From assembly GCF_000227585.1 (NCBI RefSeq), contig NZ_CAFB01000034.1, forward strand, positions 1 to 64,000: 64,000 nt of DNA, in the 5' to 3' direction. Made by a program: the position numbers and the translations under genes. The notes below the pieces were generated by a model. The model was not told the DNA's origin. It worked only from the letters and a program-made list of their open reading frames with translations, and made no database searches. Shown here piece after piece: positions 15,439 to 63,249 of this stretch. The stretch's first letter is position 1. Every line of letters starts with the position of its first letter. This DNA is from Candidatus Glomeribacter gigasporarum BEG34 (GTDB lineage: Bacteria; Pseudomonadota; Gammaproteobacteria; Burkholderiales; Burkholderiaceae).

Positions 15439-15582
15439 AGAAGTCATTTCATAAATGGCTGCGAGGCCGTGATGCAGGGTCGGGCGGTGCTCGGAATGCT
15501 CACATATTCATATATGCTCCGCTTCCTGCGCTCCGTCCTCCCCTGCCTGACGACCTCTCGCCTATTGATGAAATGACTTCTA
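15439..15582. repeat. Palindromic repeat, AGAAGTCATTTCAT type (144 bp)
   Basis: The ends AGAAGTCATTTCAT and its inverse complement frame a core starting CGGGCGGTGCTCGGAATGC. The same ends and core, in the opposite orientation, occur at 24297-24441. The same core with different ends is at 35759-35905. It occupies part of the space between murA and hinT where the his genes lie in relatives. Confidence 0.88.
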
Positions 15583-15618: not shown

Positions 15619-15984
15619 ATGAATGACTGTCTTTTCTGCAAAATTGCCGCGGGCAAAGTACCGAGCCGGAAAGTATACGAAGATGATACATTCTGCGCTT
15701 TTCACGATGCCAAACCGGCGGCGCCCGTACATGTGCTCCTCATTCCGCGCCGGCATATTGCAACGCTTGTCGATTGCGCGCCGCAGGACGCGCCTTTATT
15801 AGGGCGGATGATGATACTGACTGCACAGCTCGCAGCACAGCTTGGCGTGGCGTATCGCGGCGCGGACGCCGGCGGTACAGGTTTTAGAACCGTGATCAAT
15901 ACCGGCCCTGGGGGCGGACAGGAAATTTATCATCTGCATGCGCATTTGCTGGGAGGGAAACGTCCGTGGTCGCGCATGGGCTAG
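15619..15984 (+). CDS. hinT: HIT-family nucleotide hydrolase HinT
   Basis: The protein has 121 residues from ATG 15619 (MNDCLFCKIAAGKVPSRKVY). The histidine triad is IYHLHAHLLGG near the C-terminus. HinT hydrolyses AMP-lysine and other purine nucleoside phosphoramidates. Upstream codons to 15586 are open but unlike the family. The stop codon TAG is the first three bases of the palindromic repeat at 15982. In Burkholderia the gene also precedes tatA. Confidence 0.93.
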   Translation: MNDCLFCKIAAGKVPSRKVYEDDTFCAFHDAKPAAPVHVLLIPRRHIATLVDCAPQDAPLLGRMMILTAQLAAQLGVAYRGADAGGTGFRTVINTGPGGGQEIYHLHAHLLGGKRPWSRMG

Positions 15985-16055
15985 AGCATTTTTCAGCGGC
16001 TTGCACTACGTCACTTCGCCGTTCCGTGTGTTCGGGATCGCTGCAAAATGCTCTA
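15982..16055. repeat. Palindromic repeat, TAGAGCATTTTTCAG type, short form (74 bp)
   Basis: It runs from TAGAGCATTTTTCAGCGGCTTGC to GCAAAATGCTCTA. This is the shortest copy and lacks most of the core. It starts at the hinT stop codon and lies before tatA. Confidence 0.8.
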
Positions 16056-16858: not shown

Positions 16859-17024
16859 TAGAGCATTTTTCAGTGATTTTCCCTGTGTCGCTTCTTGCTT
16901 TCTGTCATTTGGGCTCGCTGCGGGGTCGCCTCCATCGCTTCGCGATGGAGCCTGCTCCGCCCGCATCGACCCCTATACTGTCTTCGCGCTCGCGCCAGTG
17001 GCCAATCGACTGAAAAATGCTCTA
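16859..17024. repeat. Palindromic repeat, TAGAGCATTTTTCAG type, long form (166 bp)
   Basis: Perfect ends TAGAGCATTTTTCAG and CTGAAAAATGCTCTA enclose an inner palindrome (CTCCATCGCTTCGCGATGGAG). It lies where tatC, a degQ-type protease gene and petABC are found between tatB and sspA in Burkholderia. Its orientation is opposite to the copies at 26153 and 63066. Confidence 0.9.
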
Positions 17025-23055: not shown

Positions 23056-24299
23056 AGCTTCCTTACGAATGGCAGATCGGCTGGCGCTATACCCGCACTG
23101 GCAGACGCACCGCCGGAAATGGCTTTATTTCCTTCATTTCGCTGATTTCAATGGGAGGCATTGCGCTTGGCGTCAGCGCCCTGATTATTGTGTTATCGGT
23201 GATGAACGGCTTCCAGAAGGAAGTGCGCGACCGGATGCTGTCTGTACTGGCGCATATCGAAATACTTTCGCCCGCAGGCGCTTTGCCTGACTGGCGTCAG
23301 ACGGCGGATGAAGCGCGCCGTCATCCGGAAGTGCGCGCCGCCGCGCCCTATGTCGAAGCGCAAGCCCTGCTTGCGCGCGGAAGCGCCGTTAGCGGCGTTG
23401 CGCTGCGCGGTATTGATCCAACCCTTGAAAAACAGATTTCCAGCATCGCGATGAAAGCCGGCGATCTTTCCGATTTGAAGGCGGGCGGATTTGGCATCGC
23501 GCTCGGCGCGCAACTGGCCGAAGACCTTGCGGTTCTGCCTGGCGATACGCTGACCGTTATCGCGCCGCAGGCAGAAAGCACGCCAGTGGGTTTATTGCCG
23601 CGCTATAAATTGTTCAGAGTCAGCGGCATTTTTGAGTCGGGCCATTATGAATTTGACCGTTCGCTTGCCTTGATTCATATGGCCGATGCGCAAACGCTCT
23701 TCAGACTGGAAGCCCCGACAGGTGTGCGCGTGCGCTTGCACGATATGCAGCGCGCCCCCGCCATTGCTCGCGCGCTCGCGCGTTCGCTCTCCGGCCAACT
23801 GTACGTGCGCGACTGGACCACGCAGAATCGCACCTGGTTCGCTGCGGTGCAGGTTGAAAAAAGAATGATGTTCATCATTCTGATGCTGATTATTGCCGTT
23901 GCCGCGTTTAATCTCGTCTCATCATTGGTGATGACTGTGACCAGTAAACAGGCAGATATCGCCATTCTGCGCACACTTGGCGCGCGACCCGCATCGATCA
24001 TGCAAATTTTTTTCGTACAGGGGATGGCCATCGGCGCGTTCGGCACCGCGTTGGGGATTGCGTTTGGCTGCCTGATCGCGGCCAATATTCCAGTGCTTGC
24101 GCCGATGGTGGAGCGCGCATTGCATATTCAGTTTCTGCCGCCTAGCATTTACTTCATCAGCAGCCTGCCTTCCAATCTGGTCGTAAGCGATGTCATACGG
24201 ATTGGCGGCTTCGCTTTTCTACTCTCCGTGCTCGCAACGCTTTACCCAAGCTGGCGCGCGGCGTGTATTGAGCCGGCAGCGGCGCTGCGCTATGAGTAG
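23052..24299 (+). CDS. lolC: Lipoprotein-releasing permease LolC/LolE
   Basis: The protein has 415 residues with an N-terminal membrane segment (GFISFISLISMGGIALGVSA), a large periplasmic MacB-like domain and three C-terminal segments. VMNGFQKEVRDRML and LRTLGARPASIMQIFFVQG are characteristic. With LolD it extracts mature lipoproteins from the inner membrane. The start overlaps gatC (ATGA). The stop TAG is now also the first bases of the repeat that separates it from lolD. Confidence 0.93.
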   Translation: MKLPYEWQIGWRYTRTGRRTAGNGFISFISLISMGGIALGVSALIIVLSVMNGFQKEVRDRMLSVLAHIEILSPAGALPDWRQTADEARRHPEVRAAAPYVEAQALLARGSAVSGVALRGIDPTLEKQISSIAMKAGDLSDLKAGGFGIALGAQLAEDLAVLPGDTLTVIAPQAESTPVGLLPRYKLFRVSGIFESGHYEFDRSLALIHMADAQTLFRLEAPTGVRVRLHDMQRAPAIARALARSLSGQLYVRDWTTQNRTWFAAVQVEKRMMFIILMLIIAVAAFNLVSSLVMTVTSKQADIAILRTLGARPASIMQIFFVQGMAIGAFGTALGIAFGCLIAANIPVLAPMVERALHIQFLPPSIYFISSLPSNLVVSDVIRIGGFAFLLSVLATLYPSWRAACIEPAAALRYE

Positions 24300-24441
24300 A
24301 AGTCATTTCATAAATAGGCGAAAGGCCGTCAGGCAGGGGAGGACGGAGCGCAGGAACCGGAATGTATATGGATACATGAGGATTCCGAGCACCGCCCGGC
24401 CCTGCATCACGGCCTTGCAGCCATTGATGACATGACTTCTA
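24297..24441. repeat. Palindromic repeat, AGAAGTCATTTCAT type, between lolC and lolD (145 bp)
   Basis: The ends TAGAAGTCATTTCAT and ATGACATGACTTCTA lie in inverted orientation with TA at both borders. The core is the inverse of that at 15439-15582. The left end supplies the TAG of lolC and the right end supplies the ATG (24432) of lolD. Joining the flanks with one TA gives a sequence in which lolC and lolD overlap normally. Confidence 0.92.
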
Positions 24442-26130: not shown

Positions 26131-26919
26131 ATGAGGACACTGACCCGAATCCTAGAGCATTTTTCAGTCGATTTACCACTGGCGCGAGCGCGAAGACAGT
26201 ATGGGGATCGATGCGGGCGGAGCAGGTCTCCATCGCAAAGCGATGGAGGCGACCCCGCAGCGATCCCGAATACACGGAGCAGAGAAGCGACACAGGGGAA
26301 ATCACTGAAAAATGCTCTAGGACGCACAGCGTTGACGCTCAGCCTGCTGACTTCACTCACAGGATGTCCGCTGCTGCTGATTGGCGCAGCGGGCGCTGCA
26401 GGCGGCGGCGTGCTGGCGGCCGCAGATCGCCGTACCCTGCCCACCCAAGTAGAAGATCGCAGAATTCAGAGCATAGCCAATGCCCGCTTCATTCGGGCGT
26501 TGCCGGACGAGGCGCATATCAGCACTACGGTATTTAACCGGCGCGTACTGCTCACGGGTGAAGTGCCCGGTGAGACGGAAAAGCAGAAAGCGGAATCCAT
26601 GGTGCGTGAAATCGCCAATGTGGGCGGCATTGTGAACGAATTGGCCATTCGGGGCGCAAGCTCAATCGGGGCGCGCTCAATGGACGCTTATTTAACAACG
26701 CGCGTCAAAGCGGCGCTGGTTGCGGCGAAGCATCTATCCGCGAATAACCTGAAAGTCGTGACCGAGCGCAGTATTGTCTATTTGATGGGGCTGGTGAGCA
26801 TCGATGAAGGCAAGCGCGCGGCAGCGGTTGCCAGCCAGGTGCCGGGCGTGCAGCAAGTGGTGACCGTATATGAATATATTCAGCAAAAACCAGCGCCGGT
26901 TTCAACTGCGCCTGAATAG
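26131..26919 (+). CDS. BON-domain lipoprotein with repeat-derived insert in the signal peptide
   Basis: The ORF has 262 residues. It reads MRTLTRIL, then 55 residues encoded by the palindromic repeat at 26153-26319, then GRTALTLSLLTSLTGC, a lipoprotein signal core and lipobox. Two BON domains follow (IQSIANARFIRAL...TVFNRRVLLTGEVP and MDAYLTTRVKAAL...SIVYLMGLVSIDEGK). OsmY/DolP-like BON proteins bind membranes at the outer envelope. Without the insert the leader would be a normal 24-residue signal. With it, a polar 55-residue stretch precedes the hydrophobic core. The stop TAG belongs to the next repeat at 26917. Confidence 0.85.
   Translation: MRTLTRILEHFSVDLPLARARRQYGDRCGRSRSPSQSDGGDPAAIPNTRSREATQGKSLKNALGRTALTLSLLTSLTGCPLLLIGAAGAAGGGVLAAADRRTLPTQVEDRRIQSIANARFIRALPDEAHISTTVFNRRVLLTGEVPGETEKQKAESMVREIANVGGIVNELAIRGASSIGARSMDAYLTTRVKAALVAAKHLSANNLKVVTERSIVYLMGLVSIDEGKRAAAVASQVPGVQQVVTVYEYIQQKPAPVSTAPE
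26153..26319. repeat. Palindromic repeat, TAGAGCATTTTTCAG type, long form inside a gene (167 bp with both TA)
   Basis: The ends TAGAGCATTTTTCAGTCGATTT and AAATCACTGAAAAATGCTCTA have TA at each border and an inner palindrome CTCCATCGCAAAGCGATGGAG. Net insertion is 165 bp, or 55 codons, and the frame stays open across it. Confidence 0.93.
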
Positions 26920-27020
26920 AGCATTTTTCAGTGAGATTGCCCAAGGAGCGAGCGCGAAGACAGTATGCACAATACGGCGAGCGCGAAGCGACACAGGGCA
27001 AGCCACTGAAAAATGCTCTA
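26917..27020. repeat. Palindromic repeat, TAGAGCATTTTTCAG type, medium form (104 bp)
   Basis: It lies between two convergent genes. Its left end supplies the TAG stop of the BON gene and its right end, read on the minus strand, the TAG stop of the thioredoxin-like gene. The core has GCGAAGACAGTATGCACAAT, related to the core of the ATAGCC repeat type. Confidence 0.9.
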
Positions 27021-42574: not shown

Positions 42575-43015
42575 ATGCGTGAAACGCGAACCTTATACGA
42601 ACAGGACATCGTAGCCTGGGCGAATGAACAGGCGGAATTTATCCGTAGCGGGCAATTTGATTTGCTCGACCGTGCACACATTGCAGACGAGATCGAAGAC
42701 GTGGGGAAAAGCGAACGACGCGAACTCGCCAATCGAATGGCTGTGCTGCTCGCGCATTTGCTGAAGTGGCAGTTCCAGCCTGGACGACGGGGCGCGAGCT
42801 GGCAGCGGACTATCAAAGAGCAACGCCGTGCAATTGCATTACACATCCAAGACACGCCTAGTCTATGTGCCTGCTTAGACAACGCTCACTGGCTCGAAGC
42901 GGTTTGGGCGGATGCGGTGGCAAAGGCAACGGACGAAACAGGTTTAGAACAATTTCCTGCATTCTGCCCTTGGATGCAAGAACAAATCTTGTCTCAAGCG
43001 TTTTACCCTGACTGA
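42575..43015 (+). CDS. DUF29-family protein, first of two
   Basis: The protein has 146 residues from ATG 42575, one base after the hldA stop. The DUF29 pattern is clear: [37 protein letters not shown] and [15 protein letters not shown]. No function is known for this family. A close copy follows. Together they split hldA from hldD, which are adjacent in Burkholderia. Confidence 0.85.
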   Translation: MRETRTLYEQDIVAWANEQAEFIRSGQFDLLDRAHIADEIEDVGKSERRELANRMAVLLAHLLKWQFQPGRRGASWQRTIKEQRRAIALHIQDTPSLCACLDNAHWLEAVWADAVAKATDETGLEQFPAFCPWMQEQILSQAFYPD

Positions 43016-43026
43016 AAAAGAACGAA

Positions 43027-43476
43027 ATGCCCACCCTATATGAAGAGGATATTGTCGCCTGGGCGGACGAACAGGCGAAATTCATTCGTAGCGGTCAATT
43101 TGATTTGCTCGACCGTGAGCATATTGCCGATGAGATCGAAGACGTAGGGAAGAGCGAACGGCGTGAATTAGAAAGTCGGCTGGCCGTGTTGATGGCGCAT
43201 CTATTGAAATGGCAGTTTCAACCAAAACGACGCGGCCCCAGTTGGCGCCGGACAATTGAGCTGCAACGCGAAGAAATTGACTATATTCTAAAAAAAGAAG
43301 CGCCCAGTCTCAAAGCGAAGTTCAATGATCCAATTTGGATGAGGCTGGTGTGGAAAAAAGCGCTCGCGCATGCTGTCTCTGAAACAGCGCTGGATATCTT
43401 TCCAAAAGTGTGTCTGTGGCATCTGGAGGATGTGTTATCTGATGCGTTCTATCCCGAAGGCCATTCATCCTCATGA
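43027..43476 (+). CDS. DUF29-family protein, second of two
   Basis: The protein has 149 residues and is a tandem duplicate of the preceding gene: [39 protein letters not shown] and [19 protein letters not shown]. The C-terminal half has diverged more ([19 protein letters not shown]). The stop overlaps the hldD start by four bases, so the pair is translated with the heptose operon. Confidence 0.85.
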
Positions 43477-44860: not shown

Positions 44861-44864
44861 AAAA

Positions 44865-44915
44865 GGGGTCGCGTCACGAAACGGAGGACAGAGTACGCTA
44901 AGCCTGAGGGAAGGG
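44865..44915. repeat. Left terminal inverted repeat of the Tn3-family element
   Basis: It begins GGGGTCGCGTCACGAAACGG and is the near-perfect inverse of 48636-48686. It begins four bases after the comEA stop. Confidence 0.9.
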
Positions 44916-47853
44916 TCGCAAGGGCCTGAATGTTCCTTTCCTGGGCGTTTTTCCCTGCTGCAAACATCATTCCCCGTCAAATTGATATGCTCCCAGCCCA
45001 ACGGTGACAGATATACTAGAAGGTACGCCTCAATAGACTGGCTATGCTCCCTGAGCGCCTGGATTGCCCGTTCTAGATAGACTGAGTTCCACAACGCGAT
45101 AGCTGCTGTCACCAGCGTAAGGCCGCTGGCGCGATGACGCTGGTTCTCGAAGCTACGGTCTCGCATCTCGCCCGGCCGGTGAAAGAAGACGGCTCTGGTG
45201 AGCGCATTTCTGGCTTCGCCTTTGTTCAGCCGCGCGTTGACGCGGCGGTGCAGCTCGACGTTGTGCAGCCAATCGAAGGTCAACACACTACGCTCGACCC
45301 TGCCCAGTTCTCTAAGGGCTACCGCCCGTCCGTTTTGTCTGGGAGAGCTGCTGAGCTTGCGCAGCATCAGAGAAGCCGTCCCAGTCCCCTGACGAATGGA
45401 TGCCGCCAGCCGAAGAATCTCGTTCCAGTGGCTTCGGATATGCTTGGTATTGATCGAACCACCCACCAAAGCAGCCACATCAGGGAAATCCGCCGGTTTA
45501 CCCGGCACGTACCACCGTTTATCGGCGAGATCACGGATACGGGGCGCAAACCGGAAGCCTAAGAGATGCATCAGGCCAAACACATGATCGGTAAAGCCCG
45601 CGGTATCCGTGTCATGCGCTTTAATTCGCAAGTCTGATTCGTGATACAGCCACCCATCCAATACATAGGTCGCATCTCGAACGCCGACATTGATCACCTT
45701 GGTATGAAACGGCGTATCCTGATCGGAGACATGCGTGTAGAATTGGATGCCGGGTTCACTGCCCTATTTGGGGTGGATATTGCCGCCCCGTTCCGCGTGC
45801 CCGCCCACTCTGAAGCGCTGGCCGTCTGAGGAAGCGGTCGACCCATCGCCCCAGTCTCCTGCAAAAGGATGTCGAAACTGCGCATTCACCAGTGCTGCCA
45901 AAGCTGCCGAATAGGTTTCATCTCGAACATGCCATGCTTGTAGCCAGGCCCGCTTGGCATAGGGGGTTCCAGAGCAGGATTCGGCCATCTTGCTTAAACC
46001 CAGGTGGATGGCATCTGCCAGAAGGGGGGTGAGCAGCAGGGATTTGTGCTTGGCCAAATCGCCTGTTTTTAGGGGCGTGAAGGGGCGGGTGAAGTCTGTC
46101 CATTTGTCTACTTCCACCCGCCATTCAGTGATTTTGATAGGCGGCAGCAGGCTGTAGGCTTGCTGGATCAACACATCAGCTGCGTCAGGTACGCTGTTGT
46201 TCAGCGGCGTGATTTTCAGACCGGATGGGGTCATGACGGCCTCTGGCAATGCCTCTGCCTTTGCCAGGCGACGGACGATGTTCAGTTGTTGCGTCAGTTT
46301 GGAGAGGCGTTCGTGAAGATAGGCATCGCAGTCTGTCTCAATGGCTAAATGATGAGATAGACTGCGCGCAGAGAATGGATCCGTCGGTCATAGATCATCC
46401 CCGAAATCCTTGAACTGGCGAGAGCCTTGCACCCAAAGATCACCTGAACGCAGTGCATTTTTCAGTGCGGACAGTGTGCACAGTTCGTAAAAGCGCCGAT
46501 CCACACCCTCTGCCTTGAAGACCAGGCTTTCCCAGCGTTTTCGCACAAAGCGGGTGGGCACGTCTTGTGGTACTTTTCGGGCATTCTCCGCGTTGAGTGT
46601 TTTGAGCGTCTCTACAGCAGACAACACATCCTGTGCTGCAGGCGCGACTTTCATCTGCAGGGCATCCAGAAGCGCGGGGGCATATCGACGGACCTGCGCA
46701 TCGCCGTCTCCAATGCGATGCAGGTCGTCAAACTCCCTTGGGGTGAGGTCTTGTGTTGCTGTCACGATTTTTGCAAACGTTTCCCATGAAATGAGCGCTT
46801 CAATCGCTGAAAAGGCGTCTGTACCCTCTGTCCTGGCGGCCAGCAGGACCGTGCCGATTTTCCCGTATCAACGCATCTTTTCGTGGATTGTCTTGCCGGA
46901 TTCCTGGAACTGCTGCGCGTGACTGTGTTTAGCCCAATTGAAAAGACGGCCCATGATGCGGTCATGCAGGTCAATGATCTCTCGATGATTGTCGATTGAA
47001 CTTCCAGCACGACAGCAACCCGCGTGGCGTGCCGACGTGTACTTTCCAGATCACGCAAATGTTGGGCAGTCATTTGAGCGCCTTCACGAGCGCGCTTTAA
47101 AAGCCGATTCTGATGTATCCGGTGCTCAAGACCCTCTGGCAATCTCAGCGCTTCCAGCGTTTTAAGCCCATCCAGATGTGCTCACAGGTGCTGGGCATTC
47201 GGCGCATTGGGCGACTGACGTAGCCAGGCTCATAGGCTGATTTTGCTGTGTTCATGTAGGTTGAGCAGATGCTCTAGCTTCTGCCGATGAGCCTGGGTCA
47301 AACCTGCTGTGAGCGCGGAATAAAGGGGTCGATTGCCGCGTGTCATGGCTTCTGCGCAAATCCTATCGATCATTAGGATCGATGGCAGCAGGATTCAACG
47401 GCTGCGGAGTGCCTCAATCAGCGCCTTGGCTAGCATGATGCCTTTATCGGTCTGCTGTGCCAGTGGTGCCAACGCCTGCACAGAAGATTTGTGACATCGC
47501 ACTGTAAAGGGCCTCAAGCCAAACACAGACTGCAGTTCAACCAGATGTGCTCGGCGCGTCTCTGCCCGTTGCCCGTACTCAGCCCAAATGTCTAACGGTC
47601 ATTTAAGCTGGGCTGCCACGAAGCTCAGCACCGGAGAAAAAGGGGGCTCTTCTATCTCCAACATCCTGCCTGGGGAGCGCATGTCACACAGCTGGACTGC
47701 AAATCCCAGCTGAGTGGCAGCCTTGCGACGCTGGCGAATGATGGACAGATCAGACTCGCTGAACGTGTCATGCCGAATCAGGGCATCCTGATGTTCAGGC
47801 AGCGCTCACAGACTCTCGCGTTCCGCTGCAGACAGCACCCAACGACGCGGCAT
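44897..47853 (-). pseudogene. Tn3-family transposase TnpA, several stops and frameshifts
   Basis: Reading starts at 47853 (MPRRWVLSAAERESL) and shows the DUF4158 N-terminus (FSESDLSIIRQRRKAA) and the DDE_Tnp_Tn3 domain ([20 protein letters not shown] and [16 protein letters not shown]). In-frame stops interrupt the first third (after RESL, after AAQLK, after ALRSR, and others). Frame changes occur near 46860, 46390, 45760 and 44925. The pieces 46388-46765, 45764-46249 and 44897-45697 stay open but cannot give one protein. The usual family length is about 970-1000 residues. Confidence 0.9.
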
Positions 47854-48560: not shown

Positions 48561-48635
48561 CTGTATCAATTACTGCAAGTCTTAACGCACTCTGGTGTCC
48601 GTTTTCTGGGGCAACCTCATTTAGACTCCTCGCGG

Positions 48636-48686
48636 CCCTTCCCTCAGGCTTAGCGTACTCTGTCGTCCGTTGCGTGACGCGACCCC
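48636..48686. repeat. Right terminal inverted repeat of the Tn3-family element
   Basis: It ends ...CGTGACGCGACCCC, the inverse of the left end. The integrase fragment begins at the next base, so this border marks the truncation point of that gene. Confidence 0.9.
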
Positions 48687-49349
48687 TACACGCAACACGA
48701 TAATGCACGAGAACTTGTGAAACTTTTGGAATTCTTTCATGAAGCGCCACTTGAAGAAATCAAGCCATTGCACATCGCGCAATATCGGGATTGGCGCGTA
48801 GAAATGACGCGCAAGCGTTTACTACAATCAAAACGGAACGTTCCGATCAATGCAGGCCACGTGCGCGCCAATAGAGAGTTGGCTTTGTTTTCGCATATCT
48901 GGAATAAAGGCAGAGAGTGGGGGTACACAGAAAAAACGAATCCGTGCGCTGGTATTAAAAAGCATCGAGAAAAAGGGAGGGATGTGTATGTTGACAAAAC
49001 GGGCACTCGATTACGGATTGAGATTACAGGCCGATTATCCTCTGTATTAACGCGAATCGCCGCTCGGAAAGCAGCACATAAGATTTATTCGCTCGCGCTG
49101 GTATGCGATGAAGAAGGAGCGCCATTAAGCCAAACTACACTGCGCTCGCGATTTGATCGAGCAAGAGAGAAAGCGGGTATTTCAAAACAGATGTTTCAGT
49201 TCAGGGATTTGCGCGCTAAAGCGGCCACTGAGAAAGAGCAGAGCGCAGGGATGGAAGAAGCCAAGAAACAGCTTGGCCATACTTCTGAAACGATGACAAA
49301 GCGGTATGTCAGAAACCGGATAGGTACTCTGGTCAAGCCAACCCAGTAA
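48687..49349 (+). pseudogene. Phage/island tyrosine integrase, 5' truncated and internally deleted
   Basis: The frame is open from the transposon border (QHDNARELVKLLEFFHEAPL), with GTG 48717 as the only possible start. The core-binding domain is followed by EKGRDVYV and then directly DKTGTRLRIEI. In related integrases about 50 residues lie between these, including the TGQR block with the first catalytic arginine. The C-terminal motifs FRDLRAKAATEK, KKQLGHTSE and the tyrosine in TKRYVRNR are present. It lies 84 bases from the 3' end of tRNA-Ser, its likely former attachment site. Confidence 0.88.
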
Positions 49350-62431: not shown

Positions 62432-62589
62432 TAAGAGCATTTTTCAGCGGCTTGCCTGGAGTCGCTTTGCGCTCGCCGTATGGTCCCGCTGCGGGGTCGC
62501 CTCCATCGCGCAGCGAGGCAGACCTGCTCCACCCGCATCGGTCCCGTCTTCGCGCTCGCTCTTTGGAAAATTCGCTGAAAAATGCTCTA
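62432..62589. repeat. Palindromic repeat, TAGAGCATTTTTCAG type, long form (158 bp)
   Basis: The ends TAAGAGCATTTTTCAGCG and CGCTGAAAAATGCTCTA are present with a shortened inner palindrome. It lies between tRNA-Arg and the DUF192 gene, both on the minus strand, and abuts the tRNA promoter region. Confidence 0.88.
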
Positions 62590-62613: not shown

Positions 62614-63249
62614 TCAGCGTCTTGGTAATCCATCAATTTTCGTGCCGGGTTTTACGTCTTTAGACGCATACCATCCTGAGTTCATTTCGAGTGCATAGCG
62701 CACAGGCCGCACAGGACAATGCGAGTTTAATGTTCCAGGCTGCATCTCATCCATGTTGGCAATGATGCCCGCTTCATCGATAAAAGCGATAGAAAGCGGA
62801 ATCTTGGTATTACGCATCCAGAAACAATACTGATCTGTTCGATCGAACACAAATAGCATGCCATTATCCGGTTTAAGAAAAGTTCTAAACATTAACCCCC
62901 TGGCGCGGTCAGCATCATTCTCAGCGATTTCCGCCTTCACGGAATACGCGCCCACGCTCAAATGAACGACCGGAAGAATCTTCTGTTCAGGGGAAAGGGC
63001 GCCCTGAGCGTTGGCTGTACTCGCCAGCAACCACGCGCCGATGAGCAGCAGAAAGCGTCTGCTGCTAGAGCATTTTTCAGTCGATTTGCCCGAGGAGCGA
63101 GCGCGAAGACAGTATGGGGATCGATGCAGGCGGAGCAGGTCTCCATCGCGCAGCGATGGAGGCGACCCTGCAGCGATCCCGAATACCGAAAACGCGGAAG
63201 CGACATAGGGAAAATCAGTGAAAAATGCTCTAGTTAAAGCATTTTTCAC
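62614..63249 (-). CDS. DUF192 secreted protein with repeat-derived insert in the leader
   Basis: From GTG 63249 the leader reads MKNALT, then 55 residues from the palindromic repeat at 63066-63232, then SSRRFLLLIGAWLLASTANA, a signal core and cleavage site. ATG 63288 is an alternative start. The DUF192 domain follows: VEIAENDADRARGLMFR-like block (IAENDADRARGLMFRTFLKP), MLFVFDRTDQYCFWMRNTKI and MNSGWYASKDVKPG. The family (ProC-like barrel) has no firm function. The insert length is an exact multiple of three and contains no stop. Confidence 0.85.
   Translation of the reverse strand: MKNALTRAFFTDFPYVASAFSVFGIAAGSPPSLRDGDLLRLHRSPYCLRARSSGKSTEKCSSSRRFLLLIGAWLLASTANAQGALSPEQKILPVVHLSVGAYSVKAEIAENDADRARGLMFRTFLKPDNGMLFVFDRTDQYCFWMRNTKIPLSIAFIDEAGIIANMDEMQPGTLNSHCPVRPVRYALEMNSGWYASKDVKPGTKIDGLPRR
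63066..63232. repeat. Palindromic repeat, TAGAGCATTTTTCAG type, long form inside a gene (167 bp with both TA)
   Basis: It has the same length and plus-strand orientation as the copy at 26153-26319, with about 85-90% identity by eye. It is read on the opposite strand by its host gene and is open there as well. TA flanks both ends. A degenerate single end (TTAAAGCATTTTTCACTGAG) follows at once. Confidence 0.93.

Follow-up and report, generated by a model that had tools for sequence, protein, structure and literature searches.

A gene for a BON-domain lipoprotein of Candidatus Glomeribacter gigasporarum BEG34 carries, inside its signal peptide, a 165-bp insert that is very probably a copy of a non-autonomous, nearly coding-neutral MITE, which moves into YTAR sites, duplicates the TA and would depend on a transposase supplied in trans; export of the BON protein likely continues in its presence. 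The gene lies in the window, i.e. the whole 64-kb stretch of DNA analysed here (positions 1 to 64,000 of contig NZ_CAFB01000034.1), which is part of a draft genome of 1,726,950 bases in 124 contigs.

The gene (26131-26919, plus strand, as are its parts unless stated) is open over 262 codons and matches the Pfam BON family with an E value of 8e-26. It begins with the native start and first eight codons, MRTLTRIL (26131-26154), whose final two bases are the left TA of a target duplication (26153-26154), the right TA being located at 26318-26319. Between the two TAs lies a long element of 163 bp (26155-26317) that spans GAGCATTTTTCAGT...ACTGAAAAATGCTC, with the left terminal inverted repeat GAGCATTTTTCAGT at 26155-26168 and the right one, on the minus strand, at 26304-26317. 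The net insert of 165 bp places 55 codons after codon 8 with the frame kept and, in sense phase 0, encodes EHFSVDLPLARARRQYGDRCGRSRSPSQSDGGDPAAIPNTRSREATQGKSLKNAL. It is followed by the hydrophobic core and the lipobox LTGC (26320-26367), with the predicted lipidated Cys at codon 79, and by the best-scoring BON domain (residues 185-244, 26683-26862). An earlier note, made from the sequence alone, had described a palindromic repeat at 26153-26319 within the leader of a BON lipoprotein, a TA duplication at its ends and a frame-preserving net gain of 165 bp or 55 residues, and our analysis confirmed these claims, the element itself being the 163 bp flanked by TA on both sides.

A close relative retains the uninterrupted gene. 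The BON orthologue of Ca. Glomeribacter gigasporarum BEG1, from the same genus, is an empty site, MRKLTKTL-GRATLAFSLLASLTGC, and reads MRKLTKTLGRATLAFSLLASLTGC, in agreement with the joined sequence that the earlier note had predicted for removal of the repeat. The 55-residue stretch is found in none of the 23 aligned BON orthologues (29 loci were fetched, and the six omitted have either a short leader of the usual kind or an uncertain start). The expectation of an empty site with a single TA held for the empty site but not for the TA, which is not conserved in BEG1, where the site today is CTG|GGG.

As predicted from the sequence, the N-region of the signal peptide grows from about 10 to about 65 residues, with native start, hydrophobic core and lipobox retained; the lipobox Cys is invariant across 24 aligned BON sequences. 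In the AlphaFold (AF2) model of the protein, residues 1-60 have pLDDT values of 38-48 by blocks and the BON domains are mostly above 90. The earlier note had considered that the leader may be processed, bypassed by an internal start or lost. Since lipobox and hydrophobic core are intact and the native start is kept, the sequence leans to a processed leader, and export and lipidation most likely continue with the long N-region. Bypass would require initiation at an in-frame CTG within the right repeat (26305-26307), a candidate start with a purine-rich stretch, AGGGGA (26294-26299), 5 bases upstream, and would yield (M)KNALGRTALTLSLLTSLTGC, a lipoprotein signal of normal length. However, CTG starts are rare, the native ATG keeps its own upstream purine-rich stretch, as in BEG1, and many in-frame copies of the element are placed deep inside enzymes that could not be rescued by internal initiation, all of which makes internal initiation quite unlikely. 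The signal peptide is one tolerated insertion site among many and not the purpose of the element, given that around 20 further in-frame copies are located in ORFs within the sampled fifth of the genome, several of them in essential enzymes.

The element belongs to a numerous family. Searching the genome with its 15-base end gave 333 matches at up to two mismatches, versus 3 for the reversed control, which corresponds to about 166 copies, and the 169-bp stretch had at least 43 genome matches at E <= 1e-3 (40 of 207 first-look candidates were scored). As RNA, the BON-gene copy (26155-26317) folds into one long hairpin of -85.8 kcal/mol, compared with -46.35 for shuffled sequences (sd 3.92; z -10.1). 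A chance palindrome is ruled out by this fold and by the numbers of end matches; a known RNA family was also rejected, as the sole Rfam matches at gathering scores within the window are two tRNAs. The sampled DNA contains 108 copies with both ends, whose net lengths range from 52 to 174 bp and are mainly 162/165/168, 102 and 73 bp. Eight of them were excluded because their flanks were short or their ends poor, so that the scored sample, chosen by conserved ends, comprises 100 of the approximately 166 copies and about a fifth of the genome. TA is present on both sides in 85 of these 100 copies and missing on one or both sides in 15. The target was YTAR in 79 of the 85 TA-flanked copies (CTAA 25, CTAG 24, TTAG 17, TTAA 13), as opposed to 1167 of 8365 surrounding TA sites.

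Further members of the family in the window are a short copy (15984-16053, net 72 bp) and three long ones: 16861-17022 (minus strand, net 164 bp, a frame-breaking length), 62435-62587 (minus strand, net 155 bp) and 63068-63230 (plus strand, net 165 bp), the last of which is in frame upstream of a minus-strand DUF192 domain and adjoins the hydrophobic leader of that protein. A larger TA-flanked copy of 226 bp, with an internal duplication, was observed at L040:2528-2753; its net length of 228 is divisible by three. Regarding distribution, the exact element pattern matched only three contigs in a contig collection that may exclude the source genome, all of them from BEG1; in 61 genomes searched with the whole BON protein, element-only matches were confined to the BEG34 genome and BEG1, and there were no matches in plasmids or in viral contigs. 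The element is seen only in the genus Ca. Glomeribacter among the genomes searched. A multi-copy repeat in a draft of 124 contigs could have been collapsed or misplaced, which would turn the BON insert into an assembly artefact. This is hardly credible here: identity between the BON-gene copy and the others listed is 82 to 95 percent and not complete, copies bear TA duplications at YTAR sites, and the separately assembled BEG1 has its own in-frame copy at another site, in LpdA.

The relationship between insertions and coding frames was analysed by rebuilding the empty site by script for the 100 copies and then seeking an ORF across the junction. When at least 60 codons were required on each side, 20 of the 100 copies interrupted an ORF; the length was divisible by three in 20 out of 20, and none of the 30 copies of other lengths was in this group (Fisher P 6e-4). 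The corresponding figures for lengths divisible by three versus other lengths were 24/70 and 3/30 with a 50-codon cut (P 0.014), and 16/70 and 0/30 with an 80-codon cut (P 0.002). This result overlaps with size class, since 22 of the 30 scored frame-breaking copies are short; within classes the comparison gave 14/38 versus 0/5 for long, 5/23 versus 0/3 for mid-size and 1/9 versus 0/22 for short copies. Nineteen of the 20 ORF-spanning copies are open, and the remaining one (L068) was scored on the antisense frame and is open in the frame of a PilP-type protein. The copies in the BON, TIM, Hda and AhpD genes are outside these 20 because one of their flanks is shorter than 60 codons. The same counts bear on the idea that the insert is removed from the RNA or skipped by the ribosome, for which the mobile bypassing elements of yeast mitochondria offer an analogue and which has in its favour the one long hairpin formed by each of the two folded copies, the one internal to the BON gene and the 102-bp copy at 26919 (z -8.7). 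Removal or skipping would need neither a length in multiples of three nor an open frame, yet at the 60-codon cut the former was the rule (20/20 against 0/30), and we consider this explanation very improbable. The insert would instead be translated.

Copies inside ORFs and outside stop codons are depleted, with 15 of 91 compared to 492 of 1167 background sites, a rough ratio. Of 22 genic copies, 19 are in sense and 3 in antisense orientation, versus 19:25 for ORF ends at stop codons (P 0.0012). These 22 were hand-chosen from ORF and family evidence, with L051:1521, L043:1560, L042:8794 and a few others that pass some ORF cut omitted, and the same hand-made set defines "genic" in the counts of stop-free phases given below.

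NCBIfam and Pfam scans were done on 20 ORFs, a set that is not identical to the 20 ORF-spanning copies: among the latter, family scans covered all but L051:1521, and the ORF at L090 had no NCBIfam match. The proteins identified were YhdP, CobN, AlaS, a mannosyltransferase-like membrane protein, MacB, MutS, CarA, GlmS, SucB, HemX, RsmB, BamC, a lytic transglycosylase, a PilP-type protein, a methyltransferase, a DUF192 protein, carbamate kinase, triosephosphate isomerase, Hda and AhpD. In 10 of these 20 ORFs, RsmB and ArcC not counted, curated family matches flank the insert on both sides. Scores exceeded the curated cut-off (in brackets) for AlaS, with 951 bits (457), MutS, 1029 (480), GlmS, 778 (381), SucB, 602 (449), CarA, 448 (307), and ValS, 733 (704), and fell below it for CobN (623 of 822) and YhdP (314 of 519), whose ORFs both run over the limits of the fetched DNA, as well as for MacB (869 of 966) and HemX (244 of 414). 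For Hda, PilP, DUF192 and AhpD, the element is located at or before the start region and not within the fold. Besides the copy in ValS, others were found at the N-terminus of PurA, at the N-terminus of BEG1 LpdA and in a hybrid histidine kinase.

Comparison of 16 element-bearing genes with BEG1 extended the observation made for the BON gene. In 15 of them both flanks are contained in one alignment and the element is absent from all 15; for the other one, RsmB, the BEG1 flanks are on two contigs. The alignment is free of gaps within 10 residues of the junction in eight genes (GlmS, MutS, CobN, the PMT-like protein, the methyltransferase, ArcC, the Hda 5' region and BON), small length differences are present near the junction in MacB, BamC, HemX, AlaS, CarA and SucB, and the BEG1 transglycosylase has 30 other residues at this point. 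The reciprocal case is provided by LpdA, with the element after MNMKKL in BEG1 and an empty site in BEG34. TIM, YhdP, PilP and DUF192 had no match in BEG1, and hence no empty sites were seen there for them; 25 aligned TIM relatives are without the insert, judged from lengths and matches. When the 20 joined flanks were used as queries, the matches in the BEG34 genome numbered exactly 40, corresponding to the two flanks of each gene, and it showed no second gene copy lacking the element.

These results are relevant to the third possible fate of the leader, its loss, by which the BON gene would be a pseudogene that has not yet decayed. Young pseudogenes occur in endosymbiont genomes, an N-region of 65 residues is unusual, and the C-terminal tail of the protein is shorter than in many relatives. 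On the other hand, the gene has acquired neither frameshift nor stop since the insertion, and comparison with BEG1 over 207 codons gave dN 0.11 and dS 0.65, values that mostly reflect constraint predating the insertion. Furthermore, AlaS, GlmS and MutS, each seen as a single gene copy, carry the same kind of insert, and these genes cannot all be dead. We therefore regard a dead BON gene as unlikely.

We propose that such insertions are tolerated because the ends of the element, TA|GAG...CTC|TA, spare host residues in two codon phases, the third one writing a TAG stop. In phase N-TA|, whole codons GAG...CTA are added after an unchanged codon; in phase T|A, the addition is AGA...TCT, with both neighbouring residues unchanged; and in phase TA|N, a TAG is written, resulting in truncation inside a gene or in restoration of the stop where the element enters an existing stop codon (TAA or TAG). 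Long (162/165/168 bp) and mid-size (102 bp) copies, many of them stop-free in two phases, would persist within genes as inserts of 34 to 56 residues, hydrophilic and probably disordered (one 69-bp copy would add 23), and frame-breaking copies would be removed by natural selection. Among long copies, sense phase 0 lacks stops in 15 of the 16 classed as genic, compared to 13 of the 22 others whose length is a multiple of three. Stops are present in many of the copies located outside genes and in some of those within genes that are read in another frame, so that stop-free phases are common and not universal. The peptide encoded in the commonest phase resembles EHFSVRLPKERARRQYGDRCGRSRSPSRSDGGDPAAIPNTENAEATQGKPLKNAL, a composite of copies. 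In the AlphaFold model of TIM with its insert, the barrel has pLDDT values mostly above 90 and the insert, which falls between helix 1 and strand 2, values of 46-53 by blocks; the PDB matches listed for the model are TIMs. The element is most likely selfish and coding-neutral.

The third phase is illustrated by the BON gene itself. A mid-size element of 100 bp (26919-27018, plus strand, net insert 102 bp) is located in its stop codon, where TA|A became TA|G, the present stop being the TAG at 26917-26919; this second copy lies at the end of the short C-terminal tail mentioned above. Pre-existing TAA or TAG stop codons of ORFs of at least 100 codons house 39 of 91 copies, six of which serve two convergent stops. 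Among 47 ORF ends (at least 100 codons) at an element-written TAG, the empty site was TAA or TAG in 44 cases and TAT or TAC in three. Outside ORFs, landing in a stop codon was observed for 39 of 76 copies versus 177 of 675 background YTAR sites (P 1.3e-5), where the background sites come from the same element-centred stretches, the ORFs are unproven as genes and the ratios are rough. In two further cases, L068:1561-1723 and L042:8794-8953, a single insertion restores the stop of the upstream ORF (TAA to TAG) and keeps the frame or the start of the overlapping downstream gene, PilP-type and Hda, respectively.

A second palindromic family was noticed in the window at 24299-24439 and about 15439-15582, of 141 bp (net insert 143) and with ends GAAGTCATTTCAT...ATGACTTC; its TA|G edge forms the lolC stop TAG (24297-24299), and full or partial matches exist in eight other fetched loci. 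This family may use the same stop-codon trick, and its edge at lolC would tentatively suggest that more than one element reached the same solution. Other repeats in the window are a direct repeat with 256-bp units that are 77 percent alike (42581-42836 and 43024-43279), found only there in the fetched DNA, and an inverted 60-bp repeat with 93 percent identity and copies 3.7 kb apart (44864-44923 and 48628-48687).

Terminal inverted repeats, duplication of a TA target and a short length without transposase place the element among MITEs. A parent was sought in both genomes. There were no matches to PF13358 (DDE_3) in BEG34 or BEG1, which led us to reject an IS630/Tc1 parent, and an IS5-type parent was discarded as the eight PF01609 (DDE_Tnp_1) loci lack a pair of element ends and show no more than isolated weak matches with 2 or 3 mismatches. 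Pairs of ends at the distance of an IS were few and weak in the fetched DNA; one of 1,033 bp in L063 covers a portion of an ORF of lipoprotein type and a small ORF resembling a regulator, with no transposase by reading. Duplication of TA at a YTAR-like site, found in 79 of the 85 TA-flanked copies, is a mark of the IS427 group (PMC4133298). This group is the best lead to the parent family, and the element is not filed as a member because none of the eight PF01609 loci combines a matching transposase with these ends. The same source describes ISPsp10, an IS427-group IS of the IS5 family that duplicates TA next to TAA and has its stop supplied by the target (PMC4133298). Both elements duplicate TA and make use of the stop codon of the target, but ISPsp10 is autonomous and the target stop serves its own gene, whereas the Glomeribacter element restores the stop of the host gene.

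In-frame palindromic inserts are a kind already known, from the 107-bp Correia form, the Yersinia 168-bp repeat and the Rickettsia palindromic elements (RPE). In the parts of the sources consulted, RPE (Ogata et al., 2000, 2002) are small palindromic repeats in frame in unrelated, often conserved genes (PMC2229807, PMC10969869, PMC3767692), and in Rickettsia gmk the RPE insert is translated and the host protein active (PMC2229807). The likeness to these elements put forward in the earlier note was upheld, by description and not by sequence comparison: small palindromes are in frame in many unrelated genes of an obligate intracellular bacterium. The host here is, however, a betaproteobacterium living inside an arbuscular mycorrhizal fungus, the TA duplication is clear, whereas RPE has a question mark in the review table as consulted (PMC2229807), and the YTAR target and stop-codon landing are further differences. 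The Correia/NEMIS elements of Neisseria are described in the consulted sections of the same review as having terminal inverted repeats, TA at their ends and duplicated, and size classes of 155 and 107 bp, the smaller class occurring as in-frame fusions with ORFs (PMC2229807). The Glomeribacter element shares with them the inverted repeats, the terminal and duplicated TA, the size classes and the in-frame fusions, but it is its long form that is most often in ORFs. The ends of both elements presumably differ.

YPAL/RU-2 of Yersinia, a 168-bp element coding for 56 aa, forms part of the signal peptide at one locus, as stated in the review sections consulted (PMC2229807). Its size and involvement in a signal peptide are similar to those of the BON insert, although the YPAL/RU-2 peptide is hydrophobic and part of the signal, and the Glomeribacter one is hydrophilic and precedes an existing signal. 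MITECca01 of Cardinium is likewise a high-copy MITE in an endosymbiont, with 169 copies, mostly intergenic or in other mobile elements, and an IS982-family IS as parent; the consulted sections of its source do not report coding use (PMC9769881). Our searches of open-licence papers brought up neither this host lineage nor such a breadth of essential enzymes nor landing in stop codons, and none of the papers listed there on Glomeribacter deals with palindromic or inverted-repeat elements of this sort, judging by the listing.

Rickettsia and Wolbachia are the bacteria from which palindromes that code for protein are best known, and the presence of around 20 in-frame copies in the sampled fifth of the genome of an unrelated betaproteobacterium living in a fungus bears on the question of whether they are a speciality of those bacteria. 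Tentatively, and at somewhat less than even chances, we suggest that selection shaped the coding neutrality of the element (YTAR target, G after TA, often stop-free phases and length in threes), letting a selfish element spread throughout a shrinking genome that is dense in genes, and even into essential enzymes. If so, this would be an element that enters stop codons, rewritten as TAG, or the interior of codons without altering any host residue. The inserts in both alanyl- and valyl-tRNA synthetase, the clean empty sites in a sister strain and the simple codon logic make a relevant question testable, i.e. how a mobile element is able to reside within essential proteins, and whether the peptide it adds has a cost or an effect.
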